From Mollicutes bacterium (lineage in GTDB: Bacteria; Bacillota_I; Bacilli_A; RFN20; CAG-826), in contig JALEXS010000076.1 in the NCBI GenBank assembly GCA_022780025.1, positions 1 to 41,064 on the forward strand: DNA of 41,064 bases, in the 5' to 3' direction. This document shows positions 7,301 through 39,594 of this stretch, piece by piece. The position numbers and the translations under genes were made by a program. Numbering within the stretch: the first letter of the stretch is position 1; each line of letters begins with the position of its first letter. The notes under the pieces are model-generated. The model made no database searches. It saw nothing but the letters and a program-made list of their open reading frames with translations, and was not told the origin of the DNA.

Positions 7301-8275
7301 AGATAAGGAACTCAATGAGATAGTTTCTAAAGTTGATGGAATATTAATTTCTTTTAAATTAGTAGCATCATTGAACGCAAAAAAGCATAAATCAGTAACG
7401 CCTTCTTCTAATTTTACTGAAGTAATATCTTTATATGTTTCTTCTTTAAATAACTCTTTAAAACCAATAGGTCCTAAAGCAACATTTTTCTTTTCTTTTC
7501 CAAAATATCCAGGAATTGTTAAGTTAGTAGGTATTTTTTGACCATCAGCTAAATTATTAGCTTTATTATAACTTTTCAATAAAATTTTTGATAAAGATAA
7601 ATTTAAAGGTAATTGATTATTTTCTCCACCAGTCATTGACTCAATTAGTGGATAGATATCACGCTTCAAAATAGCAGTTTTTTTAGTAGAATAATCAATA
7701 TCAAAATCTTTAAAATTTTCTATATTTAATTCAAATTTAAAGCCATCTAAATAGAATAAAGTAGGGTCATAATTTTCTTTATAAGCACATTGATCGATAT
7801 TTCCTTCTTCATCGAATTTAGTATAAACATCATCTAAAGTTGCACTAGCATCGTTATCTTTTATTAAAACCATTGGAAGTTGTTTCATAAAATCAATTGG
7901 ATTATCAACAAAAGAAGGTAAATCAAAATTACCAGTTGTATTATCATAACTTATATCATAATTAGGAATATCTAAATAATATTTAGATTCAGTGTCGCTA
8001 AAACATAAGTTTTGAAAATTAATTATTCCTAAATATTCATAATCAGTAAGCGAATTAAATACTACTCCTTTTAAAAGTTCAGAATTATAATACCAAGCAT
8101 GATATTCTTGCTTATCATCGGTAATATTTAACTTTTTTCTTAAATTTTTATAGTATTCAAGAGCTTTGTTTGTAAAATCTAAATTTGGGTTTTTAGTAAC
8201 CTTAAAAGAGCAACTGCTAAGTGATAAAGTAGCTATTGCTGCTAAAGGAAATATAAATAGCTTATTTTTATTCAT
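4382..8275 (-). CDS. Very large surface lipoprotein with one LRR unit and beta-rich repeats
   Basis: A 1297-residue protein with a lipoprotein signal peptide (basic MNKNK, hydrophobic core, lipobox SLSSC with lipidated C22), so it is anchored outside the membrane. Near 283-335 there is one BspA-type leucine-rich unit (VTDLCFFAFNDATNLKEINIPSTL). Around 510-580 a stretch with NIDLNGHKLTILNGGLLDING and GEIIVNKGGIIKT looks like right-handed beta-helix coils. The C-terminal third has two related segments (about 910-950 and 1067-1107: TNEGAWAKASD..TYLIEGK and SNEDGWIYAKN..SYLISSN). No enzyme motif is recognised. An adhesin or ligand-binding role is inference. Codon use is as AT-rich as its neighbours. 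It has no Shine-Dalgarno site; its promoter is six bases from the ATG. Confidence 0.85.
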   Translation of the reverse strand: MNKNKLFIFPLAAIATLSLSSCSFKVTKNPNLDFTNKALEYYKNLRKKLNITDDKQEYHAWYYNSELLKGVVFNSLTDYEYLGIINFQNLCFSDTESKYYLDIPNYDISYDNTTGNFDLPSFVDNPIDFMKQLPMVLIKDNDASATLDDVYTKFDEEGNIDQCAYKENYDPTLFYLDGFKFELNIENFKDFDIDYSTKKTAILKRDIYPLIESMTGGENNQLPLNLSLSKILLKSYNKANNLADGQKIPTNLTIPGYFGKEKKNVALGPIGFKELFKEETYKDITSVKLEEGVTDLCFFAFNDATNLKEINIPSTLETISLSSLSNLNLDTLYVSDTKKQLNLIETKGATFTFDFTKPGTDTKINLTVSSQFHNTKINNLIFENYDNKNALDFPYNDLTLPENKKMEDIVNYVDKDGNKTYKSLSEGFKNTNAINPIYNLDIPENKIISDEKFTKLNKGQSLFLASAKSKKDGTLINANLNKYRDYNAGNNTISNAIYTLKLENDLKIEGTLVSSGTIGRNDSIDGIAISNYTNIDLNGHKLTILNGGLLDINGKVIDSSTTKSGEIIVNKGGIIKTNLITHDVNSYNSYISSLNNGINPFNEYDFADLNCNVKLFNGSKMYTKETLTDEFSSINYEFLYFGNPSEKENYFIKPLNNNENGYLSINKNNDKTILNFVDNEVEFNKFIYSNKQSSENFYFPIVSNILDINVLNSKLTLNNNYKLTNGGKLYIDSKSTLNLNGNIFVYSKLDNSLKDLNANYQKESELIIDGNLILKNGNFINGLIKTNEESTFNKLLVIFNKVEYKYNEAIKDGYYNKNTNSFNSIDNLKFDFIVKDLKNNKKYSRYNKGYFYLDNGNDRTINNVSNPTTVLAYKNSGSTWIIDYNGKLIDSNSNNEFISTVHHSDSSEDATYTLTNEGAWAKASDINPTTHTYLIEGKTFIKYNNELLEGVILDKNILSYKLFETTQGKLFIFDDSSDWKYIELFEKDNVVAYFKNDSLIGNKIYNSENYSKVRLVYNSNFISLNDNNDYDSINHVIKNNTDKYIVSDLNKSSLVDNIDLTHKIASDSTNKFVYSNEDGWIYAKNSLVTVEESSYLISSNKNVYYGYISSNWEKVEKFNSESTHGFTLFKILNLKDNTKNFAILMDNGYQKEITQFVKCGGIDIKKENLVDSLKNLIPADAGDQFVGHQYILINGEKYVFALNDTTGVIELFKFETGVFNTISNSEIVDLKTAIKVSTIKLTYIEDGVEKTKVLYIDFDNLIYCGNTSDKTLTSLDYFGVATYSNKLSETLNPSKFA

Positions 8276-19305: not shown

Positions 19306-20649
19306 ATGAAGATATCAAAATACGCACTTTGCTTAGCCCCATTTCTAATTCTATCTTCTTGTGGGAAAGTAAATGATGATAATAACGAAGAAGGAACATA
19401 TACAAAATTAACAAACGCAATATCTAAATTAGATAACTTTACTGCAAAAGGTACTTTAGGAATAAAAAATATTGAAAGTTCTAGTTCTAGTTCATCTTCT
19501 ACTGAAGAAACTTACGAAACTAAAATAGAAATTTCTAAAGATTCTTATTATTATGAAGAAAAAAATGAATTAACTAGTGAAACTATAGTTCAAGAATCGT
19601 ATTACAAAGATAAAGATGGCTATTTAAGTCAAGATCAGTTAGATTACACAACTAATAAAGTTTATACCACTTCATATAAAGCTGAATATGATAAGCAAAT
19701 GAAGAATAACTTTACTAATCTTAAAGTTAAAAATTTAAAAGGAATTAAAGGACAACCAAATTGGTACGAATTATATAATTTAAATGAACTTGGTTTTTCC
19801 AGTTTTGATATATCTTATTTTTTAACAGGTTACGGTTATTTAAGTGGTGGTGAAGAAAAATTAAGCTGTTCTCAATTTGCTTTACATTTTGATGGGGAAT
19901 TTTTTGATCAATTTCAAATTCTATTAGAGTATACAAGTGAAGAAAGCGAAGGATCAGTTTATGCTTATCAATATCAATTTAAACTTCAATTATCCAAATT
20001 CCAAACAACTACTCCTAGTAAAATTAAAGCATATAAAGATGATGAAAATAGTGTTAAGCTAACAGCAGCTTTAACCGAACTTCAAAGTCATAATTCCTAT
20101 CAAGTAATTATTGATAATAAAACCGAAACTACTAATTATTATTACGATTTAAATAATAAAATTATTTATAGTGATTTTGTTAATTCATATACTTCTCAAA
20201 ATGTCAATTTTTATGTAGCTTATAAAGAAATAAATAACAAATTAATGATGTATTATGTAAATATAGATACACATGAAGTTTTCAAAGAATTTGATTTTAA
20301 TACATATTTTGGTACTTCTAATATTACATTTAATTATTTGCCTTTGATGTTTAATGGTGTAAATGGTGCTTGCTATAAATATGAAGGTAATAATAAATAT
20401 AATACTTATTATCAAACATATGATTACATTTTAGCTTGTTTAATTCCAAGTGATGAAGGCGGATTAACAAGTTCTAGTAAAGATAATTTCTCTTTATATT
20501 TAGATGATAATAATAAATTTGATCATATTGAATTAACCACTACTTCATCTACAGATTCTGGATCTTTATCAAATACTATAACAACAATTAAATATGATAA
20601 TTTCGATAAAGTTATAATTCCAGATTATATATTAAAATTAGGAGAATAA
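19306..20649 (+). CDS. Surface lipoprotein of unknown function with a poly-serine linker
   Basis: 447 residues with signal peptide and lipobox ILSSC (C19). A run of eight serines (58-65) follows a short helical stretch, then a repetitive beta-rich body with many Tyr/Asn/Lys residues (for example YYYDLNNKIIYSDF). The fold resembles LolA/LppX-like lipoprotein carriers in general appearance (alternating strands, DKDGYLSQ), but I do not recognise a family. First gene of a three-lipoprotein plus-strand operon; binding site GCGAGGGAAAAT. The next gene starts 6 bases after its stop. Confidence 0.8.
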   Translation: MKISKYALCLAPFLILSSCGKVNDDNNEEGTYTKLTNAISKLDNFTAKGTLGIKNIESSSSSSSSTEETYETKIEISKDSYYYEEKNELTSETIVQESYYKDKDGYLSQDQLDYTTNKVYTTSYKAEYDKQMKNNFTNLKVKNLKGIKGQPNWYELYNLNELGFSSFDISYFLTGYGYLSGGEEKLSCSQFALHFDGEFFDQFQILLEYTSEESEGSVYAYQYQFKLQLSKFQTTTPSKIKAYKDDENSVKLTAALTELQSHNSYQVIIDNKTETTNYYYDLNNKIIYSDFVNSYTSQNVNFYVAYKEINNKLMMYYVNIDTHEVFKEFDFNTYFGTSNITFNYLPLMFNGVNGACYKYEGNNKYNTYYQTYDYILACLIPSDEGGLTSSSKDNFSLYLDDNNKFDHIELTTTSSTDSGSLSNTITTIKYDNFDKVIIPDYILKLGE

Positions 20650-20655
20650 ATTATT

Positions 20656-22275
20656 ATGAATAAAAAAGTTTTATCATTATTTTCGTTGTGTTTATTGAGT
20701 AGTTTTATAACTTCATGTAATAAAGAAACATATACCAAAACTCAATATACAGACGGTCTTCAATTCGAACTTAACGAGAAAAAAGATGGTTATATACTAA
20801 CTGAAAATTTATCTAACGAAGAAGAAATAATTATTCCTGAATTATATAAAGGAAAACCTGTAAGAGAAATTGCTGATGAAGTTTTTATTTATAGTGAAAT
20901 TAAATCAGTTGAACTTCCAAAAAGTTTAAGAAAAATAGGTAAAAAAGCATTCTTTAACGCAACTGGCCTTACAAAACTTGAAATTCCAAATGGTGTTACT
21001 ACTATTGAAAATGAAGCATTCTTTTTAAATACTTCATTAAAAGAAATTGATATTCCATCTTCAGTTTCTTATATAGGAGAGAATGCATTTTCTCATGAAA
21101 CTTCATTAGTAAAATTTGTTGTTGATGAGAAAAATAAAACATATACTTCATTAAATAATGTTTTATATAATAAAGATTATTCAACTTTAATTAATTATCC
21201 ATTAGGAAGTAAAAATACTACGTATGATATCAATAAAGCTACAAAAACGATTAGTAGTTATGCTTTTTATGGATGTTCTAATTTAACTTCTATTACAATT
21301 CCTAATAGTGTTGAAACAATTGAATATCGTGGATTAGCAGCTTTAAGTTCTCTAACTACTATAACAATAGATTTAGATGAAAGTAATTTAAAAACAATTG
21401 GTGAATATGCTTTCAGTGAAAATTCTTCTTTAACAAGTTTTAAACTTCCAAATAAAGTTGAAGCTCTTGGTGAATATGCTTTTTATAAAGATCGTTCTTT
21501 AACTTCTTTTTCGTTTAATAATAATGAAAATATTAAAGAGATACCTAGATGTTTGTTCCATTCTTGTGCTGGTCTTACTACTCTTATTTTACCTAGCAAT
21601 TTAACATCGATAGGTGATAAAGTATTTTATTCTTGTTCACAACTTAAAAAATTAAGTATTCCTACTACTGTAACTAATATAGGAAGTTATGCTTTTTATG
21701 GAAATCATTCAATAACTAGCATTGAAATTCCTGAATCAATTAAAACTATTAAAGAAGGCTGCTTTTCAAGTTGTATTTCATTATCTAAATTTAATTTTCA
21801 TAAAAATTTAGAAGTAATCGAAGACAAAGCTTTCTTAGGATGTTCTGCTTTTACTTCTTTAGACTTATCTAAAACAAAAATTAATAGTATAGGTGCTAGT
21901 GCTTTTTATGGATTAACATCAATAACATCAATAGAATTTCCAACAACTTTAAAAAATATTGGTGAAAAGGGATTTGATGGTGGTACTATTGCTAAAATAA
22001 AAAATTTAGAATTACCTGAAGGATTAGAAACTATTGGTGCATATGCATTCAATAATTATCAAGTCCTTAATAGTGTTTATCTTCCAAAAACTATAAAAAC
22101 TATAGGTGATTATATCTTTTTATCAGCTGGTTTTGATCAAAAATTAAGTTTTAAAATATATACTCCTTTATCAGAAATGCCAACTGGAGTTAGCAAAAAT
22201 TGGGTTAGACCAGAAATTTTAGAAAGAGTTCAATTTAACACTACTTTAGATCAATATCATACTTTAATAGGATAA
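20656..22275 (+). CDS. BspA-type leucine-rich repeat lipoprotein
   Basis: 539 residues. Lipobox FITSC gives lipidated C21. From about residue 55 to 510 there is an almost unbroken series of LRR_5/BspA repeats of about 23 residues with the pattern IGxxAFxxCxxLTSxxIPxSVxx, for example YAFYGCSNLTSITIPNSVETI. Such proteins are surface adhesins or binding proteins in gut and oral bacteria; the ligand here is unknown. Its ribosome binding site (AGGAGA) lies in the last codons of the upstream gene, so the genes are translated from one mRNA. Near 130-165 the series is broken by a NNVLYNKDYSTLINYP insert typical of this family. Confidence 0.9.
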   Translation: MNKKVLSLFSLCLLSSFITSCNKETYTKTQYTDGLQFELNEKKDGYILTENLSNEEEIIIPELYKGKPVREIADEVFIYSEIKSVELPKSLRKIGKKAFFNATGLTKLEIPNGVTTIENEAFFLNTSLKEIDIPSSVSYIGENAFSHETSLVKFVVDEKNKTYTSLNNVLYNKDYSTLINYPLGSKNTTYDINKATKTISSYAFYGCSNLTSITIPNSVETIEYRGLAALSSLTTITIDLDESNLKTIGEYAFSENSSLTSFKLPNKVEALGEYAFYKDRSLTSFSFNNNENIKEIPRCLFHSCAGLTTLILPSNLTSIGDKVFYSCSQLKKLSIPTTVTNIGSYAFYGNHSITSIEIPESIKTIKEGCFSSCISLSKFNFHKNLEVIEDKAFLGCSAFTSLDLSKTKINSIGASAFYGLTSITSIEFPTTLKNIGEKGFDGGTIAKIKNLELPEGLETIGAYAFNNYQVLNSVYLPKTIKTIGDYIFLSAGFDQKLSFKIYTPLSEMPTGVSKNWVRPEILERVQFNTTLDQYHTLIG

Positions 22276-26468: not shown

Positions 26469-28946
26469 TTAGTGAAGTCTGATATCGAAATGATTTTCGT
26501 ATAATTGACAATTATTTATATCGATTTTTAAGCGAATTTTTTCACCTTTTTTGTAATCTTTATCACTTAAAACATATAATGTATCGTGAATTGTTTCGCA
26601 TTTAATGAATTTCTTATTACCATAATCTGCTTCATCAAGTACCACTGCTTCAAGATCATTTTCATCATTAGAAATAGTATATGCATCGTGATTTACTTCG
26701 ATTCTATAAATACTATTAAATGTCTTAGCTTGTAAAGCTTGGATCATCTTATTCTCAATAGATTCATTACATTTGAAATAGAATCCATTATACATAAAGA
26801 ATCCTTGGCGTTCTGAGAATTCAACTTTACCTTGAAGTTTATTGAATTCTTCTAAAACTGAAATATTAGTTTTTTCCTTGAGTTCTGCAAGGTTTTTCTC
26901 TTTAAAAACGTTAAATTCAGTTAAAGCATCATGTTTAAGTTCTTTAGATTCGTTTAATAAAGCTTTATCGTGATTATTGATAACTTTCTTAAATTCTTCT
27001 AAGTATGACTTAATTGCATGTATTTTTTCTTCAAAAGGAACAGAAATGATTTTTGCTTTTTCATCTAATTTTGCTTTTTCTTCGTTTGATAAACCAAGTA
27101 ATCTATTTTTATTCTCATTGAATTTTGCCATGCCTTCTTGATAATCTTTTGTAGCCTTAGCAATTTCTTCTTTTGCTTTATTTTTTACTTTAACTTTACC
27201 ATCTTTTCCAAGTTCACCTTTTTGTAATTGGAAAGCTTCTTCAGCTTTTATAATTGACAATTTTTCCTTATATTCTTTTTTAAGTATCTTAGGAATTTCA
27301 GGGTTAATTTTTAATTCATTTAAAGCATCATTTTGTTCTTTAATGATATTTTCAACTTGCTTATTGCAATTACTAATAATAAATTTTTCATATGTCTTCT
27401 TAGAAGATTTTAATGTAGCTTGACTTGTAAAACCAACAAGAATGCTATCACGTTCTTCTAATGGTTTTACTATTTCTTTACCATTAATACACATTTCGAT
27501 TCTAGCAAAATCGATTGCAATTTTAACTTTATCACCAACTTTATATTCTTTATCACTATAAGCAAAGAAAATACGATCATTAATTCTAAGATGGATTAAT
27601 TTTTGTTCATTAATTTCTTCTATTAAAGCAACTTCAGCTTCGATATCACCATCAAAAGTAATAGCATCGCAAGGTAATAACATTTCTATATTATTAGCAT
27701 TATCAACTCTAATAGCCTTAGGTAAAGCAATCTTATTGCCTAATAAATCTAAAACATCATCTTCTACACATACATCAAATAAATTAACTTTAGGTAATCT
27801 AGGTGCGATTGACTCTTCTGTTTCTTTATCAAAGAAATGTAAATGATCAATATCGATAGCAGCAGCGATAACATCACCTTGACTTAATTCTAATTTATTA
27901 CTAAATGATTTAATAATAATTCTAGTATTAGATTCATCATATCCATTACCTTCCATATCTAAATCACCATAAACTAAAGTTTCACTACCTAAATCTTCAA
28001 AATGAGATACTTTAACTTTAATAATATTGTTACTCTTTTTAACTATTTCAGGATCAATAGAAATATGTTCACATCTAACACCTAAAATAACATCTTTATC
28101 GCCATTAAAATAATTAGGTTTTACTTTTAATAAAGAATTGAAAGGAATAGTTAATTTATCATCGCAATCTTTGAAATTAATATTAACATTATCTTTTTCT
28201 TTTAATAATGAAACATTAAAGAAATTCATTTGAGGAGTGCCAATAAATCCAGCAACGAATTTATTTTCAGGATAATTATATAAATTTTTAGGAGTATCGA
28301 TTTGTTGAACTCTACCTAATTTCATAACAACAATTCTACTACCCATAGTCATAGCTTCAACTTGATCATGAGTAACATAAATAAATGTTGTACCTAATTC
28401 TTTATGAATCTTAGAGATTTCACTTCTCATTTGAGTTCTTAATTTAGCATCAAGGTTACTTAATGGTTCATCAAGTAAGAATACTTTAGGATTTCTTAAA
28501 ATAGCTCTACCTAAAGCAACACGTTGTCTTTGACCACCACTCATTGCCTTTGGTTTACGATCTAAATAATCGCTAATACCAAGTATTTTAGCAGCCCATA
28601 ATATTTTTTCATGAATTTCAGCATCTGGAACATGTCTTAATTTTAATCCAAAAGCCATATTATCATAAACAGTCATATGAGGATAAAGAGCATAGTTTTG
28701 GAAAACCATTGCGATATCTCTATCTTTAGGTTCAATATCATTAACTAATGTATCCCCAATAAATAATTCACCAGCAGAAATATCTTCAAGTCCTGCTATC
28801 ATTCTTAAAGTAGTTGATTTACCACATCCACTAGGTCCAACAAAGACAATAAATTCTTTATCTTTGATCTCCATATTAAAATCACTAACTGCTTTAGTTC
28901 CATTTGGATAGACCTTATACAAATGTTTTAAACTTAAATTTGCCAT
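26469..28946 (-). CDS. Extended MalK/MsmK-type ABC sugar ATPase with extra TOBE-like modules and coiled coil
   Basis: 825 residues, more than twice the usual 360-380. The ATPase is intact: Walker A GPSGCGKST (37-45), Q83, signature MSGGQRQ (135-141), Walker B FLLDEP (156-161) and H193. A normal regulatory TOBE/OB part follows (about 240-375). The extra half has a TOBE-like module (about 390-495, ending YKVGDKVKIAIDF), a long Lys/Glu-rich coiled coil (about 540-700), and a third TOBE-like module (about 705-825, ending YKKGEKIRLKIDI). The three module ends are alike. It is the last gene of malE-malF-malG-amylase-malK and should power maltodextrin import. The frame is open throughout, with AGGAG at the start and no sign of an assembly join. 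Confidence 0.92.
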   Translation of the reverse strand: MANLSLKHLYKVYPNGTKAVSDFNMEIKDKEFIVFVGPSGCGKSTTLRMIAGLEDISAGELFIGDTLVNDIEPKDRDIAMVFQNYALYPHMTVYDNMAFGLKLRHVPDAEIHEKILWAAKILGISDYLDRKPKAMSGGQRQRVALGRAILRNPKVFLLDEPLSNLDAKLRTQMRSEISKIHKELGTTFIYVTHDQVEAMTMGSRIVVMKLGRVQQIDTPKNLYNYPENKFVAGFIGTPQMNFFNVSLLKEKDNVNINFKDCDDKLTIPFNSLLKVKPNYFNGDKDVILGVRCEHISIDPEIVKKSNNIIKVKVSHFEDLGSETLVYGDLDMEGNGYDESNTRIIIKSFSNKLELSQGDVIAAAIDIDHLHFFDKETEESIAPRLPKVNLFDVCVEDDVLDLLGNKIALPKAIRVDNANNIEMLLPCDAITFDGDIEAEVALIEEINEQKLIHLRINDRIFFAYSDKEYKVGDKVKIAIDFARIEMCINGKEIVKPLEERDSILVGFTSQATLKSSKKTYEKFIISNCNKQVENIIKEQNDALNELKINPEIPKILKKEYKEKLSIIKAEEAFQLQKGELGKDGKVKVKNKAKEEIAKATKDYQEGMAKFNENKNRLLGLSNEEKAKLDEKAKIISVPFEEKIHAIKSYLEEFKKVINNHDKALLNESKELKHDALTEFNVFKEKNLAELKEKTNISVLEEFNKLQGKVEFSERQGFFMYNGFYFKCNESIENKMIQALQAKTFNSIYRIEVNHDAYTISNDENDLEAVVLDEADYGNKKFIKCETIHDTLYVLSDKDYKKGEKIRLKIDINNCQLYENHFDIRLH

Positions 28947-28956
28947 ATAAACACTC

Positions 28957-30480
28957 CTATTTATAAATTAAAATTGATTTTGAAGGCATTTTAACCTTAT
29001 TTTTATCAAATTTTATATTTTTATTATTATCAACAACTAATGAATACTTATCTAAATTAGTTAAATTTAACTTAGATAAATCATATTCAACATCGTTATC
29101 ATTAAAATTCATAACAATTACATTTCTTTCGTTTTGATAAATCTTTTCAAAAGCTAAAACATAATTATCATTAAATTCAATTAAATTAAATTTCCCTTTT
29201 CTTATCGCATTACTAGAATTACGAATATAATTTATTTTCTTAATATAATTAAGAATAGAATTTGAATCTTTCTTTTGCTTAATTACTGATCCATAAATAT
29301 TATCACTAGCATTAGCACCATTAGGATCTATACAATTAGTTTTATCACCCCAATCCATATGACATCTAACATTTTCATCAGTTGGATTAACTCCAAATAA
29401 ACCAATTTCATCACCATAATAAGTAAATGTAGTACCAGTAGAAAGTTGCATTAAAGCATGACCAAATTTAGTATTTTTATTACTTCTTTTAGATTGTAAT
29501 ATATTAGCTGCTCTAGCATTATCGTGATTAGTAATAAAAGGTGCAGGAATATTATCCCCAGCTTGTCCTATTAAATAATTATTAGTATTAATAAAAGATT
29601 TACCATCATTATTTACAATTTCGTAAACAAATTCATCACCTAAAACTTTACTATCATAATAACTAAAGAAACTATCAATACCACTTTGATACATTCTAGT
29701 AATACTTCCACCATTAGTCCAGGCTTCACCAACAATATATGAATCTTTATTAATAGATTTGCAATAATCATTAAACCATCTTAAAAATTCAATATTTTTC
29801 TCTTCATTACCAGCAAAATACCAAGTAGTAGCATCAAGTCTAAATCCATCAATTCCTATATCAAAATAAAATTTAACTATATTTTTAATTTCTTCTTTGA
29901 CATAGTCACTATCTAAATTTAAATCAGGCATATCACTTCCAAAATTAGCTTCATAATAAACCCCAGCATATCCATAATTGTGAATATCATCTTTTGTCAT
30001 AGAAAAATTATAATATTCACTATATTTATTAGATTTATCACCATTTTTAAAAGCATTAACACCATCTAAAAACCATTTATTTTTATTACTACTATGATTA
30101 ATAACTAAATCTATAATAATATTAATATCTTTTTCATGAGCTTTATTAACTAAACTCTTTAAATCATCAATATTACCAAATTGAGGATTAATTTTATAAT
30201 AATCAACAACATCATAACCATGATATGTTGTAGTTTCATTAATAGGAGTTAACCAAATACCATTAAATCCCATATCAGAAATATAATCTAATTTATTTTC
30301 AATTCCTTTAAGATCCCCGATATAATCATTATTACTATCAGCATAACTTCTAGGAAATATCTCGTAATAAGTACGATATTTATCTTCTTTAGCTAATTTA
30401 GTATCAAAAAGATTATCTTTATTATTACAAGATACTAAACTAAATAACGTAATTAATAAGAAAGAGATACTTTTTTTCAT
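28957..30480 (-). CDS. Surface-anchored GH13 alpha-amylase-type lipoprotein
   Basis: 507 residues. Lipobox SLVSC (C18) anchors it outside the cell. The GH13 barrel has the three catalytic residues D216 (GFRLDATTW), E252 (IVGEAWTN) and D320 (ITNHDNAR), plus region I IDLVINHSS. It would cut alpha-1,4 glucans (starch, maltodextrin, pullulan-type) at the surface and feed the transporter encoded with it. It begins 2 bases after malG. Stop is TAG and overlaps the binding site of the next gene. Subfamily specificity cannot be read with certainty. Confidence 0.93.
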   Translation of the reverse strand: MKKSISFLLITLFSLVSCNNKDNLFDTKLAKEDKYRTYYEIFPRSYADSNNDYIGDLKGIENKLDYISDMGFNGIWLTPINETTTYHGYDVVDYYKINPQFGNIDDLKSLVNKAHEKDINIIIDLVINHSSNKNKWFLDGVNAFKNGDKSNKYSEYYNFSMTKDDIHNYGYAGVYYEANFGSDMPDLNLDSDYVKEEIKNIVKFYFDIGIDGFRLDATTWYFAGNEEKNIEFLRWFNDYCKSINKDSYIVGEAWTNGGSITRMYQSGIDSFFSYYDSKVLGDEFVYEIVNNDGKSFINTNNYLIGQAGDNIPAPFITNHDNARAANILQSKRSNKNTKFGHALMQLSTGTTFTYYGDEIGLFGVNPTDENVRCHMDWGDKTNCIDPNGANASDNIYGSVIKQKKDSNSILNYIKKINYIRNSSNAIRKGKFNLIEFNDNYVLAFEKIYQNERNVIVMNFNDNDVEYDLSKLNLTNLDKYSLVVDNNKNIKFDKNKVKMPSKSILIYK

Positions 30481-30482
30481 AA

Positions 30483-31388
30483 TTAGCCTTTAACAGATCC
30501 ACCAGTAATACCTTCAACGTAATATCTTTGTAATAAGAAGAATAAAACCATAATTGGTATTGAAGTAAATACTGCTCCACTACAGAATCTAGTGAAGAAT
30601 TTAGAAATATTTTGACCATTATTACCAGTTAACCAGTTTTGTAAACCAACAGCAACAGTCCAACTAGATTGCTTAGTACCTAAAATATAGCTACTAAGCA
30701 TAAAGTCACCCCAAGGAGCAACAAATGTAATTAAAATTGTATAAATTACGATTGGTTTAGATAAAGGTAAAATAATCTTCCAGAAAATAGTATTACGATT
30801 AGCACCATCAATCATAGCAGCTTCATCTAAACTCTTTGGAATAGTATCAAAAAATCCTTTAACAATATAATATTGAGTAGCACTACCTGCAATATAAACT
30901 AAAATTAAAGCTAAAGGTCCACCAAAATTTGGAGCATCATTACCAATAAGTCCTAATTGTTTTATAACAAAATATATTGCAATCATGCTTAAAAATCCAG
31001 GGAACATACCAATAATTAATATAAGTTTCATTATTCCTTTTCTTGCTTTAAATCTCATTCTTGATAAACAATAAGAAGTCATTAAAACAAAAATAGTTTG
31101 GAATATACAACTTACTAAAGCAATTACTAAAGTAGTAAGATACCATCTCATAAATGGATATTGACCTGAAAAATCAAACAAAGCTTTATAATTATCTAAA
31201 GTCCATTTTTGAGGAATCATATAACCAACAACGTGAGTTGATTCACCTCTAAAGCTTTGTAAAAGTAAATAAACAAATGGAAAAATCCAAATAATAGAAA
31301 TTATTACTAATATAATATAGATAAATGTATTAGAAATAATTCTTCTTGCTTTCATTGAGGAAGTCTTACGTGTATTTAAATTATTCAT
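30483..31388 (-). CDS. malG: Maltodextrin-type ABC transporter permease MalG
   Basis: 301 residues, six membrane segments, N-terminus basic. The EAA loop that docks on the ATPase is LDEAAMIDGANRNTIFWKIILPL (about 187-208). It ends with the short cytosolic VEGITGGSVKG tail typical of MalG. The ATG overlaps the malF TAA (TAATG), showing translational coupling. Confidence 0.94.
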   Translation of the reverse strand: MNNLNTRKTSSMKARRIISNTFIYIILVIISIIWIFPFVYLLLQSFRGESTHVVGYMIPQKWTLDNYKALFDFSGQYPFMRWYLTTLVIALVSCIFQTIFVLMTSYCLSRMRFKARKGIMKLILIIGMFPGFLSMIAIYFVIKQLGLIGNDAPNFGGPLALILVYIAGSATQYYIVKGFFDTIPKSLDEAAMIDGANRNTIFWKIILPLSKPIVIYTILITFVAPWGDFMLSSYILGTKQSSWTVAVGLQNWLTGNNGQNISKFFTRFCSGAVFTSIPIMVLFFLLQRYYVEGITGGSVKG

Positions 31389-32890
31389 TATTGGAAATCC
31401 TCCTCATTTTTAACAGCATTACTCTTTGAATAGAAAATCATAGAGATAACAGCAACAATAATAAATACGACAATACCAATTGCACTTGCCATCTTATAAT
31501 TATTTTCATTAACAGTTAATTTATAAAGCCAAGTAATTAATAAATCAGTATCGCCACCAATTAATTTATCACTATTAACAGGAACTCCACCAGTTAATAA
31601 GAAGATAACATTGAAGTTATTAATATTACCAATAAATTGAGAAATTAAATAAGGTCCCATAACAAACATCATATAAGGTAAAGTAATTTTCATATACATT
31701 TTGAAAGGACCAGCTCCATCAATACGAGCAGATTCATATAAATCATTAGGTATATTCATTAAAATACCAGTACATGATAAAACAGTATAAGGTACACCAA
31801 CCCAAATATTAATGATAATAACGAATATTCTTGCCCATACTGTATTCATAGCATAAACAAGTTTAGGTAATCCCATAAGTTCTAACATATGGTTAACAAT
31901 ACCACCACTAGAGAACATTTGAGAAATAAGTAATAAAGAAACGAATTGAGGAACTGCAATAGTTGTAACTAAAATAGTTCTCCAGAATTTCTTAAATTTA
32001 ATACCTTTTTTATTAATAACTAAAGCTAAAATCATTCCTAAGAAATAATTAGAGAAAGTAGCAAAAAATGCCCAAACTAAAGTCCAAAGTAAAGCATCTT
32101 TAAATGTATAAGCAAATTTTGCGTTCTCACCAAGAACATTTTTACCAAGTAAAATATCAAAATTGCTTAAACCACTCCAAGTGAATAAATGTTCAGGAGG
32201 TAAATGTCCTTTATCCCAATTAGTAAAAGCAATAAATATCATAAAAATTAAAGGAATAATTGTAAAAGTTACTAATCCAAGCATTGGAATAGCTAATAAA
32301 GTTTTATGATATTCACGATCAGCTAAAGACTTAAAAACATCTTTAGTAGTTTCGATTTTTCCACCGACATTACTGATTTGTTGTAATTTATAGCTACTTT
32401 TAATATTTTGATAATAAGTATATATAAATCCTAATATAACAACTAAACAAACAGTACCATAAAGTAAAATAAGTAAGGAATTATCACCTTTTACATAAAT
32501 GTAGCTTTGTGTCGCTTCATCCCACACTTCATGTGGTAATTCTGTACCTAAAGAACCAAATTTAGATAAATATTTCCGACCCCAAAAGCCCATAAAAAGG
32601 CCAAATATTATTTCAAATAAGAAAAAAAGTATACCTTTAAGAAATTCCTTTCTAGTAAAAAGACCAAAACCCATAAATATGAAAGATAATCTAGTTTTCA
32701 AGTCTCCATAAACTAAAGCATCTTTAATTTCTATAAAAGGTTTCGATACTTTTTTTCCTATCTTTACAAATTTTGATGGAATTGATTTAAAAAATGATAG
32801 AGTTTTCTTCGGTATACTAACAAAAAAATTTCTTGTCTTAAACAAGAATCTCCTTGGCTTAGATAAGCCCAAATAAGCATAACTATCCAT
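31388..32890 (-). CDS. malF: Maltodextrin-type ABC transporter permease MalF
   Basis: 500 residues. A basic, amphipathic N-terminal region (1-65) with KxxKK/SIPKK runs precedes the hydrophobic part; membrane segments begin near 68. The permease core from about 195 has the EAA loop NDLYESARIDGAGPFKMYMK (382-401). Gram-positive MalF homologues commonly run 430-450 residues, so the N-terminal part is somewhat long. Second gene of the operon after malE, separated by a strong hairpin at 32906-32931; its binding site is TAGGAG. Confidence 0.94.
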   Translation of the reverse strand: MDSYAYLGLSKPRRFLFKTRNFFVSIPKKTLSFFKSIPSKFVKIGKKVSKPFIEIKDALVYGDLKTRLSFIFMGFGLFTRKEFLKGILFFLFEIIFGLFMGFWGRKYLSKFGSLGTELPHEVWDEATQSYIYVKGDNSLLILLYGTVCLVVILGFIYTYYQNIKSSYKLQQISNVGGKIETTKDVFKSLADREYHKTLLAIPMLGLVTFTIIPLIFMIFIAFTNWDKGHLPPEHLFTWSGLSNFDILLGKNVLGENAKFAYTFKDALLWTLVWAFFATFSNYFLGMILALVINKKGIKFKKFWRTILVTTIAVPQFVSLLLISQMFSSGGIVNHMLELMGLPKLVYAMNTVWARIFVIIINIWVGVPYTVLSCTGILMNIPNDLYESARIDGAGPFKMYMKITLPYMMFVMGPYLISQFIGNINNFNVIFLLTGGVPVNSDKLIGGDTDLLITWLYKLTVNENNYKMASAIGIVVFIIVAVISMIFYSKSNAVKNEEDFQ

Positions 32891-32946: not shown

Positions 32947-34206
32947 TTATTTAGCGATTGTAGTAATATCAGTAACTAATTGATCTAATTTTGTTTGTAA
33001 ATTAGCAGCAGTAATTTCTTTCTTATAGCAAGCTGCAGCACCAAAGTTTTGAACTGCTGTCCAGAATGTTGATGGAACGTTAATTTGTGGATCGCCTGCT
33101 TTAGCAACTTGAGCAGCTAAACCAGCAATAGCTTTATTAGCTTTAACATCAGCAGAATTACTTAAATTAATGTTACTTGGACCCATATTAAGTTTTTCAA
33201 ATCTAACTTTTTGAGCAGCTTCATCACTGATAAATTTAGCAAATTGTAATGCTAATGCAGTGTTTTTAGATTGCTTATTAACACCAACCATTTTACCACC
33301 AATAAATGATCTCATTCTGGATGTAGCATCACCTTTTGTCATTAATGGCAAATATGTACAATTTGTTTTATCTGCACCCCATGCTGTAGAAATTTCTGCA
33401 TATTTCCAAGTTCCTACAACAACAGCACCGATTTCACTAGTTTTTGCAGTAATGTAATCATTTAAGACAACTGACTTATCGCCACTTGATCCACCATCAG
33501 CATATTGGAAGCCTTCTAAATTAGCTAAATTAACAAAGAAATTACCAGCTTTTAATCCTTTTTCTCCGTTATAATCACATTTAATTTCAGTTTCTTTACC
33601 TTTATCATCATAAGTGACTTCGTATTTTGCACCATAGCCAGAGAAAATACCATATCCGTACCAGGAATCGCCAACAGGAACTACGAATTTCTTACCTTTA
33701 GCAGCACATTGAGCAGCTACTTCTTCAAATGAAGTTGTTTCATCATATTTTGTGACAACATCACTATTATAATATAAGAAATATCCGTTATCAGCAGTGA
33801 TTGGGAAAGCATAAAGTTTATCACCTTTTTTAGCTGCATTAACCATACCTTCTAAGTTTGTAGTTTCGACAAATGTTTTATAATCGCCACCTAATTCAGC
33901 TAAACCACCAACTTTAATTAAATTATATAATTGGTCATTAGCAAAACTATAAACATCTGCTCCGCCTTCAACGTCTTTTGAAAGAGTGCCATAAGCATCA
34001 CCTTCACCACAAGCACCAATTTTAATATTTAAGTCCTTGTACTTTGCATCAGTTGCTTTAAAATCTTCGACGAATTTCTTATAAATCTCAGTATGTTCAA
34101 CTGGGCACCAAACAGTAAGATCTACTTTTTCACCACCACAAGAAGCTAAGCCAGCTACAGTTAATACGCCTGCTGCTAAAACTCCTAACATTTTAACTTT
34201 TTTCAT
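32947..34206 (-). CDS. malE: Maltose/maltodextrin-type solute-binding lipoprotein
   Basis: 419 residues, lipobox GLASC (C23). The mature part begins VDLTVWCPVEH and has the extracellular sugar-binding (SBP_1) layout: YAFPITADNGYFLYYN, AQKVRFEKLNMGPSN near the C-terminal lobe. It captures oligosaccharides for MalFG. First gene of the operon with a strong GAGGTT site. Ala- and Gly-rich and of higher GC than its neighbours, as expected of a highly expressed gene. Confidence 0.94.
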   Translation of the reverse strand: MKKVKMLGVLAAGVLTVAGLASCGGEKVDLTVWCPVEHTEIYKKFVEDFKATDAKYKDLNIKIGACGEGDAYGTLSKDVEGGADVYSFANDQLYNLIKVGGLAELGGDYKTFVETTNLEGMVNAAKKGDKLYAFPITADNGYFLYYNSDVVTKYDETTSFEEVAAQCAAKGKKFVVPVGDSWYGYGIFSGYGAKYEVTYDDKGKETEIKCDYNGEKGLKAGNFFVNLANLEGFQYADGGSSGDKSVVLNDYITAKTSEIGAVVVGTWKYAEISTAWGADKTNCTYLPLMTKGDATSRMRSFIGGKMVGVNKQSKNTALALQFAKFISDEAAQKVRFEKLNMGPSNINLSNSADVKANKAIAGLAAQVAKAGDPQINVPSTFWTAVQNFGAAACYKKEITAANLQTKLDQLVTDITTIAK

Positions 34207-34762: not shown

Positions 34763-36271
34763 TTAATATCTTTTATATTTATCGTTTAATTGAACTAACA
34801 TTTTTTCTAATTCAGGTTTATGACGATCGAATATTTCTTTATTAACTTTATAACTCCAATTATCGGTAGATAAGGTTGATGGTAAATTCATTCTTCCTTC
34901 TTTTCCGGTTCCTAATAAATCTTGAACAGGAACCATTGAAGCTATAGCATTATTTGCAAAATCTAATTCTATTACCTTTAATGTTAACTCATAATTTGAT
35001 AAATTTCTATTGAAATCAATATTGAAGTATTGACATTCACTTTCCATGATATCTAAGAATAATTCTTTTTTACTAGGATTTAACTCATCTATAAATTGAC
35101 GAGTAGTTTCACTATCATGAGTTGATGTATAAGAGAAATAATGTTCATTATAGTTTCGAGGTCTCCATGTATCATTAATATCTTGATTTAATAAACCTTG
35201 AGTAATGATCTTCATTCCAGGATAGCCACAATCTTTCAAAAATCTCTCGAAGTCATCATCCATAAAGCCTAAGTCTTCAGCGATAATTGGTAAGTGAGTT
35301 TTATCTTTAAATAAATCAAATCCTGGTCCTTTAATCCATTTACCGTTTTTAGCTGTTTTATCACCATATGGAATGGAATAATAACCACTAAATCCTCTAA
35401 AATGATCAATTCTAATTAAGTCATATAACTTTAATGCGTTATTAATTCGATCATTCCACCATTTATAACCAGTAGATTTTAAATATTCCCAGTTATATAA
35501 AGGATTTCCCCAAAGTTGCCCATCAGCACTGAAGCAATCTGGTGGACATCCTGCGACTCTTGTAGGATTATGATGTTCATCAAATTGGAACATTTCAGGA
35601 TATTTATAACATTCAACGCTATCGTAAGCTAAGTAAATTGGAATATCTCCCATAATCTTTACACCTTTATCGTTAGCGTATTTCTTTAATTTATAATATT
35701 GATTAAGGAATTCGAATTGAGTCCACATATAGAAATCATATAATTTCTTGTTATTATTAATGACTTCATCTTCTATTTCCTTAGAATAATTTCTTAAATC
35801 ATCATTCCAGTTGTACCATGGTTGATAATTATTTAATTCTTTTAAGACCATAAAGAATGCAAAATCTCTAGCATTTTTATTAGTATCTAAAAAGTTTAAA
35901 AATTCTTTATTATATTTAAAATTATTAAAGGCTTTTTTTAAAATAACTATTCTATTATTAAATATTTTTTCATAATTTACTTTTTCTTCATTATTACCAA
36001 AATCAACATTGTTATAGTCTTCAAGTTTTAATAAACCTTGCTCTTTTAAAGTATCAAGATCTATAAAATAATAATTAAATCCATAATTTGATGGAGATTG
36101 ATAAGGACTATCGCCATAACTAGTTAAATTTAAAGGTAAAATTTGCCAAATTGAAATATGGGAATTATTTAGAAAATCAACGAAATCATAAGCTTCTTTT
36201 CCAAAGGTTCCAATACCATATTTATTAGGTAAACTTGAAATGTGCATTAATATACCACTAGTTCTTTTCAT
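34763..36271 (-). CDS. malQ: 4-alpha-glucanotransferase (amylomaltase, GH77)
   Basis: 502 residues, standard length. The GH77 catalytic residues are all present: nucleophile D289 in RIDHFRG (R287), acid/base E332 in AEDLG, and D386 in THDSE. GCPPDCFSADGQLWGNPLY (241-259) is the signature loop. It transfers maltosyl units between dextrins in the cytosol, releasing glucose and longer chains. It has its own promoter and a perfect cre site just upstream, so it should be glucose-repressed. The second paralogue upstream keeps the fold but not the active site. Confidence 0.96.
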   Translation of the reverse strand: MKRTSGILMHISSLPNKYGIGTFGKEAYDFVDFLNNSHISIWQILPLNLTSYGDSPYQSPSNYGFNYYFIDLDTLKEQGLLKLEDYNNVDFGNNEEKVNYEKIFNNRIVILKKAFNNFKYNKEFLNFLDTNKNARDFAFFMVLKELNNYQPWYNWNDDLRNYSKEIEDEVINNNKKLYDFYMWTQFEFLNQYYKLKKYANDKGVKIMGDIPIYLAYDSVECYKYPEMFQFDEHHNPTRVAGCPPDCFSADGQLWGNPLYNWEYLKSTGYKWWNDRINNALKLYDLIRIDHFRGFSGYYSIPYGDKTAKNGKWIKGPGFDLFKDKTHLPIIAEDLGFMDDDFERFLKDCGYPGMKIITQGLLNQDINDTWRPRNYNEHYFSYTSTHDSETTRQFIDELNPSKKELFLDIMESECQYFNIDFNRNLSNYELTLKVIELDFANNAIASMVPVQDLLGTGKEGRMNLPSTLSTDNWSYKVNKEIFDRHKPELEKMLVQLNDKYKRY

Positions 36272-36284
36272 AATACTCTCTTTC

Positions 36285-36298
36285 TGTAAGCGCTTTCA
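36285..36298. promoter_or_regulatory. Perfect catabolite-responsive element (cre) at malQ
   Basis: TGTAAGCGCTTTCA matches the CcpA consensus TGWNANCGNTNWCA at every position and is nearly a full palindrome. It directly follows the malQ -10 box (sharing its edge), so bound CcpA or a LacI-type regulator would block transcription start. A LacI-family MalR could also use it. Confidence 0.85.
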
Positions 36299-36326
36299 TT
36301 TTAATAATAATGTAAAGCCTTGTCAA
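36298..36326 (-). promoter_or_regulatory. Strong malQ promoter
   Basis: Minus strand TTGACA (complement of 36321-36326; perfect -35), 17 bases, TAAAAT (complement of 36298-36303). It leads directly into the cre site. Confidence 0.85.
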
Positions 36327-36635: not shown

Positions 36636-38165
36636 TTAAAAATCGAAATTTTTTGTGTTTATTCTATTATATTTTTTATTTAAATTATAAAATTTTTCAA
36701 TAATTTTTGGTGAAATATCACTATTTAAAAATCTATAAGTCCAGTTATCATTAGAAAAAATACCTGGAATATTCATTCTTGAAACACTACCTTGATTTAA
36801 TATATCTTGCATTGTAATGGTAGTATATTTTGCTTTACTACTTAAAAGTAATTCAATAATTTTTAAATGTAAATAAGAATTAGATGCTTCTTTTTCGATA
36901 AATTCTACATTTAATAAAGAACATTCATTTTTAACTTTTGAAATGACTTCAAGTTTTTCTTCTTCATTTAAGCTTTCGATTCTTCCTCTTAAAGAATTAT
37001 TGTCATGATTTCCAATATAAGCTAAAGAATCTTCTTTTAAATTTGATGGATAAAATCTTTCATATATTTTTTTATTTTTAAAAATAGGTAATAAAATAGT
37101 TTTTAAAGTTGGATAACCCGTTTCTTTAACAAATTTTTCAACATCTTTTGAATAAACACCTAAATCACTAGCAAATATATTCTTATCATTTATATCTTCA
37201 AAAAGTTCCATTCCAGGCCCATAGTAAAACGATCCTTCTTTATTACTTTTTGCTCTATAAGGAATGCCATAAACTTGGTAAAATCCTGAAAAATGGTTAA
37301 TTTTAACCATATCAAATAATTCTAAAGCTTGATTAATACGAGATTTCCGCCATTTGTAATGAGTATTTTTCATATAAGCCCAATCATAAAGTGGTTCACC
37401 CCATCTTTGTCCAGTTTTTGAGAATTCATCAGGTGGAAAGCCAGCAACAACATTCATTAAATTATATTTATTTAAATTAAATATTTCGCTATATCCATAT
37501 AAAGAAGCACTATCAAAATCTAAAAAATGTGAGATTTCACCGATGATTTTGATATTTTTACTTTTTGCATATTCATGAAGATTATTCCATTGTTTAAGAA
37601 AAATAAATTGAATAAAGTAATAATAATTATATCGATCGTTATAATTATTAATTACATCTTCTTCGACTTCTTTTGAATAATATCGATCTTCAAGTTTAAA
37701 ATCATACCATGCTTTAAAATTATTTTTTTCTTTTAAAGTCATATAAATAGCATATTTTTTATAAAGATCATTATTTTTAAAACGTATAAAATCATAATTA
37801 TTCTTATTAAATCTTTTATAAGCTTTTGATAATAATTTATTAGAATTATCAAATACTTTTTTATAATCTACTTTTCTAGCATCTTTAAAGAAAGTTATAC
37901 CTTGTAAATCTCTACTATTTAATAATCCATCTTTAATTAATAAATCATAGTCGATAAAATAATGATTTAATCCAAAAGCACTTAAAGTTTGATATGGAGA
38001 ATTAGAATAACTAGTTTCGGTTAAAGGTAAAATTTCCCAATAACTAAATCCAGCGCTTGCTAAAAAATCAATGAATTTATAAGCAGATTCACCTAATGTT
38101 CCAATACCATATTTACCAGGTAAACTTGATATATGTAAAAGTACTCCTGATTCTTTATTTTGCAT
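36636..38165 (-). CDS. GH77-like amylomaltase paralogue, probably catalytically inactive
   Basis: 509 residues, clearly homologous to malQ over its whole length (HISSLPGKYGIGT at the start, GFPPDEFSKTGQRWGEPLY 242-260, RMNIPGIFSNDNWTYR near 463-478). The active site is changed: RIDHFRG reads KINHFSG, so the nucleophile Asp is N290 and the neighbouring Arg is K288; AEDLG reads ASDLG, so the acid/base Glu is S333. Only the third Asp (D388, NHDNN) remains. I confirmed the AAC and AGT codons in the DNA. It probably binds alpha-glucan without cutting it. The gene is intact, so it appears to be kept. Its start has no ribosome binding site and its -10 is six bases from the ATG. Confidence 0.92.
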   Translation of the reverse strand: MQNKESGVLLHISSLPGKYGIGTLGESAYKFIDFLASAGFSYWEILPLTETSYSNSPYQTLSAFGLNHYFIDYDLLIKDGLLNSRDLQGITFFKDARKVDYKKVFDNSNKLLSKAYKRFNKNNYDFIRFKNNDLYKKYAIYMTLKEKNNFKAWYDFKLEDRYYSKEVEEDVINNYNDRYNYYYFIQFIFLKQWNNLHEYAKSKNIKIIGEISHFLDFDSASLYGYSEIFNLNKYNLMNVVAGFPPDEFSKTGQRWGEPLYDWAYMKNTHYKWRKSRINQALELFDMVKINHFSGFYQVYGIPYRAKSNKEGSFYYGPGMELFEDINDKNIFASDLGVYSKDVEKFVKETGYPTLKTILLPIFKNKKIYERFYPSNLKEDSLAYIGNHDNNSLRGRIESLNEEEKLEVISKVKNECSLLNVEFIEKEASNSYLHLKIIELLLSSKAKYTTITMQDILNQGSVSRMNIPGIFSNDNWTYRFLNSDISPKIIEKFYNLNKKYNRINTKNFDF

Positions 38166-38171
38166 GAGGTT

Positions 38172-38200
38172 ATTGTATAGTAATATCAGCTATTTTTAAA
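38172..38200 (-). promoter_or_regulatory. Promoter giving a leaderless mRNA for the GH77-like paralogue
   Basis: Minus strand TTTAAA (complement of 38195-38200), 17 bases, TACAAT (complement of 38172-38177), then six bases (AACCTC) and the ATG. The start is supported by alignment of the N-terminus with MalQ. Confidence 0.65.
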
Positions 38201-38298: not shown

Positions 38299-39594
38299 AT
38301 GAAAAACGAATTAAAAAATCAAATAATTTATCAGGTTTTTGCAAGGAATTTTACAAAAGAAGGCACTTTTTGCGCTTTTAATGAACATATAAATTATATT
38401 AAAAATTTAGGAGCTGATATCGTCTATTTTACTCCTATTAATGAGATTGGTCTTATTGATAGAAAGGGCGATTTAGGTAGTCCTTATTCAATAAAAGATT
38501 ACTATAAAATAAACCCTGAATTAGGTACTTTAGAAGATTTTAAAAGCACAATAAATAAGATTCATGATGCTAATATGAAAGTCATGATTGATGTTGTTTT
38601 TAATCATACATCAAAAGATTCAACTTTATTTAAAGAGCATCCAGATTGGTTTTATAAAAATAAAGATAACAAAGTCACTAGTAAGTGCGAAGATTGGACT
38701 GATGTTATTGATTTAGATTATAAAAATAATAAAGAATTAGTAAAATATATAGTTGATGTTCTTAAATATTATATTGATTTAGGAGTTGATGGCTTTAGAT
38801 TTGATGTCGCTAGTATGATTGATATTAGTTTATATAAAGCTATTCAAAAGAATATTTTGAAAAATAATCCTAATATAATAATGTTAGGTGAAGCAATTGA
38901 TGCTGGTTTTACAAATTATTTAAGAAGTAAACATATCGAAGCAATCGATGATGCTACATTATTTAATACTGGTTTTGATTTATTATATGAATATAATACT
39001 TGGAAAGAATTAAGAGAATATTTAGAGCAAGATAATATTTTAAGCTTAGAAAGATATAAGATTTTAAAATCTTATGAAGCAGGCTATAACCCAATTAATG
39101 CTTTAAGAGTTCGTGGAATAGAAAATCATGATCAAAAAAGATTATGTGAATTCACTACTTCTACTTTAAAAAGATATAATTTAGCAGCTATGGCTTCCTT
39201 TATGAATGGTCCAATGTTTATATATAATGGATTAGAAACTAAAGCTGATCATCATCTATCTTTATTTACTAAAGATTTATTGGATCTTTCAATAGATCAA
39301 GAATGGTTTGATTTTATTAAAAAACTTATTGATATTAAAAAAGATCCTATTAATAAAGATATAATTATCTCATTAGTTGACACAACTAAAGGTGAATTTA
39401 TGATTATTAAAAATATATATAAAGATGAAAGTTATACTTTAGGTATTTTTAATTTATCTACCCGTGAACAACTTATTAAAAGTGACTTTTTAATCGATGG
39501 AATCTATACTAATTTATTAGATAATAAAATACATTTTATTGAAAATAATTCAATAAAAGTCAGTAAACCATTAATTTTAACTACTAGAAAATAA
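38299..39594 (+). CDS. Cytosolic GH13 family glucan hydrolase or transferase
   Basis: 431 residues without signal peptide, so cytosolic. GH13 residues are present: D169 (GFRFDVAS), E198 (MLGEAIDA) and D278 (ENHDQKR); region I is DVVFNHTS. The ENHDQ form and short length recall small alpha-glucosidase, oligo-1,6-glucosidase or cyclomaltodextrinase-like enzymes; the C-terminal beta domain is reduced. It should act on imported oligosaccharides together with MalQ. The exact bond specificity cannot be told. Its TAA directly abuts the MFS stop on the other strand. Confidence 0.9.
   Translation: MKNELKNQIIYQVFARNFTKEGTFCAFNEHINYIKNLGADIVYFTPINEIGLIDRKGDLGSPYSIKDYYKINPELGTLEDFKSTINKIHDANMKVMIDVVFNHTSKDSTLFKEHPDWFYKNKDNKVTSKCEDWTDVIDLDYKNNKELVKYIVDVLKYYIDLGVDGFRFDVASMIDISLYKAIQKNILKNNPNIIMLGEAIDAGFTNYLRSKHIEAIDDATLFNTGFDLLYEYNTWKELREYLEQDNILSLERYKILKSYEAGYNPINALRVRGIENHDQKRLCEFTTSTLKRYNLAAMASFMNGPMFIYNGLETKADHHLSLFTKDLLDLSIDQEWFDFIKKLIDIKKDPINKDIIISLVDTTKGEFMIIKNIYKDESYTLGIFNLSTREQLIKSDFLIDGIYTNLLDNKIHFIENNSIKVSKPLILTTRK

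Follow-up and report, generated by a model that had tools for sequence, protein, structure and literature searches.

The window (the whole 41,064-nucleotide stretch that we analyzed, which has 25% G+C and is a complete contig of a 1.43-Mb metagenome genome) encodes a GH77 protein in which the nucleophile and the acid/base of the family have been replaced, upstream of an intact malQ. We describe it as a conserved, vertically inherited pseudoenzyme. It is very likely to be catalytically inactive, and it probably binds glucan, while a helper role in maltodextrin breakdown is a more tentative suggestion; all three are inferences. The reading that we favor, that the protein holds alpha-1,4-glucan without cutting it and helps MalQ or the neighboring GH13 enzyme, seems to us about an even bet.

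A GH77 homolog without its nucleophile and acid/base

The gene (36636..38165, minus strand) encodes 509 amino acids in an unbroken frame, as the first-pass annotation had reported, and its product matches the GH77 family (PF02446) at 407 bits over the full length of the profile (residues 10-482 against profile positions 1-462). The translation also agrees exactly with what that annotation said of the catalytic center. Where malQ of the same locus has RIDHFRG and AEDLG, the pseudoenzyme has asparagine for the nucleophilic aspartate (N290, codon at 37296..37298), lysine for the arginine (K288, 37302..37304), and serine for the acid/base glutamate (S333, 37167..37169; all on the minus strand). 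Of the three acids that are expected of a GH77 transferase, only the transition-state stabilizer is present, as D388 within NHDN; the histidine before it is retained as well (H387-D388, 37002..37007, minus strand). The motifs that were said to mark the fold are kept (GFPPDEFSKTGQRWG from residue 242 and RMNIPGIFSNDNW from residue 463). The malQ gene (34763..36271, minus strand), which lies 364 bp downstream, encodes a catalytic 4-alpha-glucanotransferase with intact D, E, and D, as judged from its translation and Pfam match. A third GH77 gene lies elsewhere in the genome, and its catalytic residues are intact.

We compared 26 species genomes from the genus, which comprises Candidatus Onthovivens and its relatives (uncultured Bacilli); 19 of them contain an ortholog of the pseudoenzyme, and the gene is missing from the other 7. 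All 18 orthologs that cover the sites have Lys288 and Asn290, and position 333 is serine in 13 of them and asparagine in 5. Thus, the catalytic residues are lost throughout the ortholog group, and the alignment to GH77 members and related genomes uncovered no ortholog with an intact D and E among these 18. (D388 is an aspartate in 16 of 17 orthologs and an asparagine in one.) Aspartate, glutamate, and arginine occupy the three positions in all 64 of the other GH77 proteins that we compared (27 MalQ_A and 7 MalQ_B proteins from the genus and 30 proteins from other genera of the family). Because 18 independently assembled orthologs share the same state, chance or assembly error is excluded.

We also searched more widely for this combination of residues. 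The codon pattern K-x-N-H-F-x-G-F gave no further GH77 in 198 other genomes of the family (matches in G152 and G153 were rejected, as the fetched DNA did not contain GH77). A looser pattern gave a few extra matches in 279 genomes of the order, and those that were fetched (L185-L187, which leaves two in G223) were not GH77. When 84,980 species genomes were scanned with a protein pattern, the matches were limited to uncultured Bacilli, among them one named Candidatus Onthovivens merdipullorum, and a single Borreliella GH77.

Genomic context and candidate partners

In the window, malQ is followed by genes for a maltodextrin ABC importer, as identified by profile matches: a sugar-binding lipoprotein (32947..34206), a MalF-type permease (31388..32890), a MalG-type permease (30483..31388), and, beyond the second GH13 enzyme of the cluster (28957..30480), a MalK-type ATPase with a 446-amino-acid C-terminal extension (26469..28946; all on the minus strand). 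The extension is without a Pfam or PDB sequence match, and ORFs of similar length are present in other loci of the genus (e.g., L033 and L051). On the other side of the pseudoenzyme gene is a divergent GH13 amylase-type gene (38299..39594, plus strand; Pfam match) with the motifs GFRFDVA, GEA, and ENHD. Farther away, the ORFs at 4382-8275 (1297 amino acids) and 19306-20649 (447 amino acids) had no Pfam match, and 20656-22275 encodes a BspA-type leucine-rich repeat protein.

The pseudoenzyme gene is directly before malQ in 14 genomes, and in those loci with enough contig, the maltodextrin ABC importer comes next. The opposite flank usually has a divergent GH13 gene. In four genomes (G013, G001, G022, and G011), the pseudoenzyme gene is away from malQ and among unrelated genes (an ECF transporter and TruA, or SpoU and YgjP). 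Two genomes (G012 and G024, loci L042 and L044) carry a pair of MalQ genes within or close to the cluster, and a separate GH13 gene accompanies each of them, which suggests repeated duplication of the GH13-malQ unit.

A promoter-like TTGACA-17-TAAAAT (36298..36326, minus strand) lies before malQ and downstream of the pseudoenzyme gene, and a LacI-type palindromic operator (TGAAAGCGCTTACA, 36285..36298, minus strand) overlaps the last base of its −10 element. The genome encodes four LacI-family regulators. Across the genus, a LacI-type operator (TGWAAGCGCTTWCA) is present just 5' of malQ in 20 loci with zero mismatches; elsewhere in 511 kb we found only two matches, each with one mismatch, and never an operator upstream of the dead paralog. 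As the operator lies between the genes and upstream of malQ only, the paralog is probably transcribed apart from malQ. Around the start of the pseudoenzyme gene (38160-38200), there is no clear Shine-Dalgarno sequence and a −10-like TACAAT is very close by; possibly, the message is leaderless.

The best of the alternative explanations, which we still consider unlikely, is that the pseudoenzyme is an obligate regulatory subunit: it would form a hetero-oligomer with MalQ or GH13 and shift glucan affinity or product size, in the style of ISA2 and ISA1. Its location immediately 5' of malQ in the 14 genomes would fit, and MalQ_A is also present in 18 of the 19 carriers. In the carrier G011, though, neither MalQ_A nor GH13 is detectable, the gene is unlinked from malQ in four species, and the separate, operator-controlled promoter of malQ means that a complex with MalQ is not specially favored. 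Presence of the pseudoenzyme and of the neighboring GH13 gene agrees in 24 of 26 genomes (18/1/1/6, Fisher p = 0.0002, although the genomes are phylogenetically non-independent), and three losses of the pseudoenzyme within the carrier clade coincide with a missing adjacent GH13 gene. These co-losses amount to only about three independent pairs, which is too few for significance, and one of the loser genomes (G004) is only 52% complete. Also, the evolutionary distances of the putative partners are only weakly correlated beyond the species signal: the correlation is 0.17 for MalQ, and the partial correlation for GH13, which was 0.71 on 10 loci, fell to 0.31 once 17 genomes and a species marker were used. 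The precedent for a subunit is plant ISA2, a noncatalytic glucan-enzyme paralog that is kept in complexes (PMC12510319).

The predicted fold and the putative glucan-binding cleft

The predicted fold of the pseudoenzyme (pLDDT 94, pTM 0.93) has the (beta/alpha)8 barrel, the subdomains, and the gate hairpin of GH77, and it aligns to the S. agalactiae amylomaltase (6M6T) with a TM-score of 0.92 and a Z of 47.5 (1.8 A over 487 residues). The prediction was made with 57 sequences and replaced an earlier model from 15 sequences (pLDDT 75); the larger alignment includes active relatives, and so it aids prediction of the fold but is uninformative about function.

At positions equivalent to the contacts that are described in PMC4705983 and PMC7990933, the orthologs keep S56 (17/17), D246 (18/18), F248 (16/18), Q253 (18/18), W255 (17/18), H291 (18/18), H387 (17/17), and N465 and P467 (17/17), and position 58 is F or Y. 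The gate (250s-loop) hairpin, as defined in PMC4705983, is retained at residues 239-258 (37392..37451, minus strand). In DPE1, this gate traps glucan with Asp-329, Phe-331, Gln-336, and Trp-338 (PMC4705983), which correspond to D246, F248, Q253, and W255 of the pseudoenzyme and are kept. Among the cleft residues that are named for the Thermus amylomaltase in PMC8465469, converted to their equivalents here, S56, P57, W255, H291, L335, G336, H387, D388, N465, and P467 show little or no variation in the clade. Three changes are conservative (F/Y58, a tyrosine platform that is often Phe; D/E210, where D210 is often Glu; and K288 for Arg), and the differences are N290, S/N333, N386 (Thr in active enzymes), and a variable position 334 (the Asp after the acid/base). 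With the gate and most of the contact residues conserved, glucan binding is plausible.

New residues are also fixed at or near the catalytic center, as judged by sequence: E44 (38034..38036, minus strand; 17/17 in the clade, with Gln in 64/64 other GH77 proteins), H213 and F214 (37524..37529, minus strand; 18/18), and N386. The fixation of E44, H213, and N386 could reflect an altered ligand or new chemistry instead of plain holding. A second alternative, then, is a neofunctionalized enzyme whose new catalytic set (E44, H213, K288, N290, S/N333, N386, and D388) acts on a different glucan bond or on a modified maltodextrin. This seems improbable because the nucleophile and acid/base positions contain neither Asp nor Glu, because S and N alternate at 333, and because several of the fixed changes are conservative. 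Still, seven positions at or near the center are fixed for a new residue or a narrow new set where the active relatives are invariant or different, and purifying selection on the protein equals that on MalQ in strength (see below). If the rebuilt pocket did have a new reaction, or did bind a distinct modified glucan, it would represent a functional class that is new for the GH77 scaffold, but we give this little credence.

A third possibility is that the protein is still an active 4-alpha-glucanotransferase despite its substitutions, as its NCBIfam score would imply: it passes the cut-off of the malQ equivalog TIGR00217 (214.5 versus 205.65 bits). Because it does so, it would receive the name of an active enzyme, which is a trap for annotation. 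Also, lysine in place of the arginine is tolerated in Borrelia GH77, as the B. burgdorferi protein has lysine at this position. According to Godany 2008, as cited in PMC8875642, only the catalytic triad is kept in the B. burgdorferi enzyme and it was active when assayed, so K288 alone is not proof of inactivity. However, both the nucleophile and the acid/base are replaced in every ortholog that covers the sites, and the replaced nucleophile is the residue that forms the covalent intermediate that is visible in GH77 crystals (PMC4705983, PMC7990933). With both of these residues gone, the protein should be unable to form the glycosyl-enzyme intermediate, and we consider continued activity to be very improbable.

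Inheritance and selection

In a tree that was built without the three catalytic columns, the dead copies form a single clade (support 100/100) that adjoins a group of MalQ_A and one MalQ from a neighboring genus but lies outside it. This placement suggests a duplication before the origin of the genus, though an AU test did not reject the alternative (p = 0.19). Distances among the pseudoenzymes track those of the species marker PheT (r = 0.92), and the PheT tree requires about four gains or losses of the gene, so inheritance was mainly vertical, with losses.

For the closest pairs of pseudoenzymes, dN/dS is 0.04-0.25, as compared to 0.06-0.20 in active MalQ (Nei-Gojobori method); dS is close to 1 in many cases, which makes the ratios approximate, but they lie well below the neutral value. 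Together with the substitutions that are fixed in the orthologs that cover the sites, these ratios support the claim of the first-pass annotation that this is a conserved pseudoenzyme that is kept by purifying selection. A functionless copy in decay is the least credible explanation of all: nonsynonymous differences across species pairs are 1.3 times those of MalQ and there have been several losses, but the frames are intact except at contig ends, dN/dS is low, the contact residues are conserved and the new residues are fixed across deeply diverged species, and the GH77 lineage that is truly eroding in a neighboring genus (discussed below) has a quite different appearance.

A proposed role in maltodextrin metabolism

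We return to the reading that we favor, a cytoplasmic helper that holds glucan, or reports on it, for MalQ and the neighboring GH13 enzyme. As the contacts of subsites −2, −1, and +1 and the mobile gate are kept, a maltodextrin chain should still be captured and held uncut. The pseudoenzyme would grip the chain in the retained −2/+1 cleft, beneath the gate, and might store, present, or report cytoplasmic maltodextrin for the two enzymes. It would be expressed from its own promoter, regardless of the state of the operator-controlled malQ promoter. Counting against this reading are the altered cleft positions (K288, N386, the variable 334, Phe at the tyrosine platform, and Glu at 210), the newly fixed E44, H213, and N386, and the lack of the gene in 7 of the 26 genomes.

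The pseudoenzyme is a bacterial example of a question that is best known from plant starch metabolism, namely why selection retains an inactive duplicate of a glucan enzyme alongside the live one. The bacterial version is small and is usually confined to a single gene cluster. Pseudoenzymes of glucan metabolism are already known, above all ISA2 (PMC12510319). In the literature that we searched, which covers few subscription journals, we found no vertically inherited GH77 lineage that lacks both the nucleophile and the acid/base beside an active MalQ in a gut genus.

Comparison with known systems

The characterized GH77 amylomaltases (S. agalactiae 6M6T, Aquifex 1TZ7, Thermus 1CWY, and Arabidopsis DPE1 5CPS) are homologous to the pseudoenzyme over its whole length. 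The predicted fold is the same (Z of 44-47), the gate hairpin and most of the cleft contacts are common to both, and both are without the C-terminal domain C. The pseudoenzyme differs in the replaced Asp nucleophile and Glu acid/base, in Lys for Arg, in Asn for Thr before the HD pair, and in Glu for Gln in strand 1. The D293A/D395N double mutant of the Thermus amylomaltase was crystallized with bound cycloamylose (PDB 5JIW; PMC8465469). Thus, a GH77 protein without its nucleophile can bind a long alpha-glucan, and binding without catalysis is realistic, although this mutant is engineered and its third Asp, which is kept here, is altered.

Plant ISA2 is a GH13 pseudoenzyme whose nucleophile is altered across its lineage and which selection keeps beside an active paralog (PMC12510319). 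In this respect, as a noncatalytic paralog of an alpha-glucan enzyme, it is like our protein. It belongs to another GH family and another kingdom, and its complex with ISA1 has been demonstrated, whereas here a complex is hypothetical.

GH77 proteins of borreliae with changed invariant residues were also known before, and were reportedly described by Kuchtova and Janecek in 2015 (cited in PMC8465469 and PMC8875642). They resemble the pseudoenzyme in having Lys for Arg, and the protein of Borreliella japonica (L113:7953-9479) also has Asn at the nucleophile position. It differs in that its acid/base Glu is present (VEDFG) and the His that precedes the third Asp is missing. Its identity to the protein in the window is just 28%.

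Finally, GH77 copies with lost catalytic residues are present in a neighboring genus of the same bacterial family (L144:8047-9486, plus strand; L153:1453-2910, plus strand; and L152:937-2220, minus strand). Their substitutions (CIDDF and VKDY, with R to C and E to K) are different, and, judging by sequence, this lineage is apparently of separate origin. In these copies, the gate, the HD pair, and the Asn and Pro contacts are gone as well. In contrast, the pseudoenzyme has lost the residues for cutting and kept most of those for the grip.
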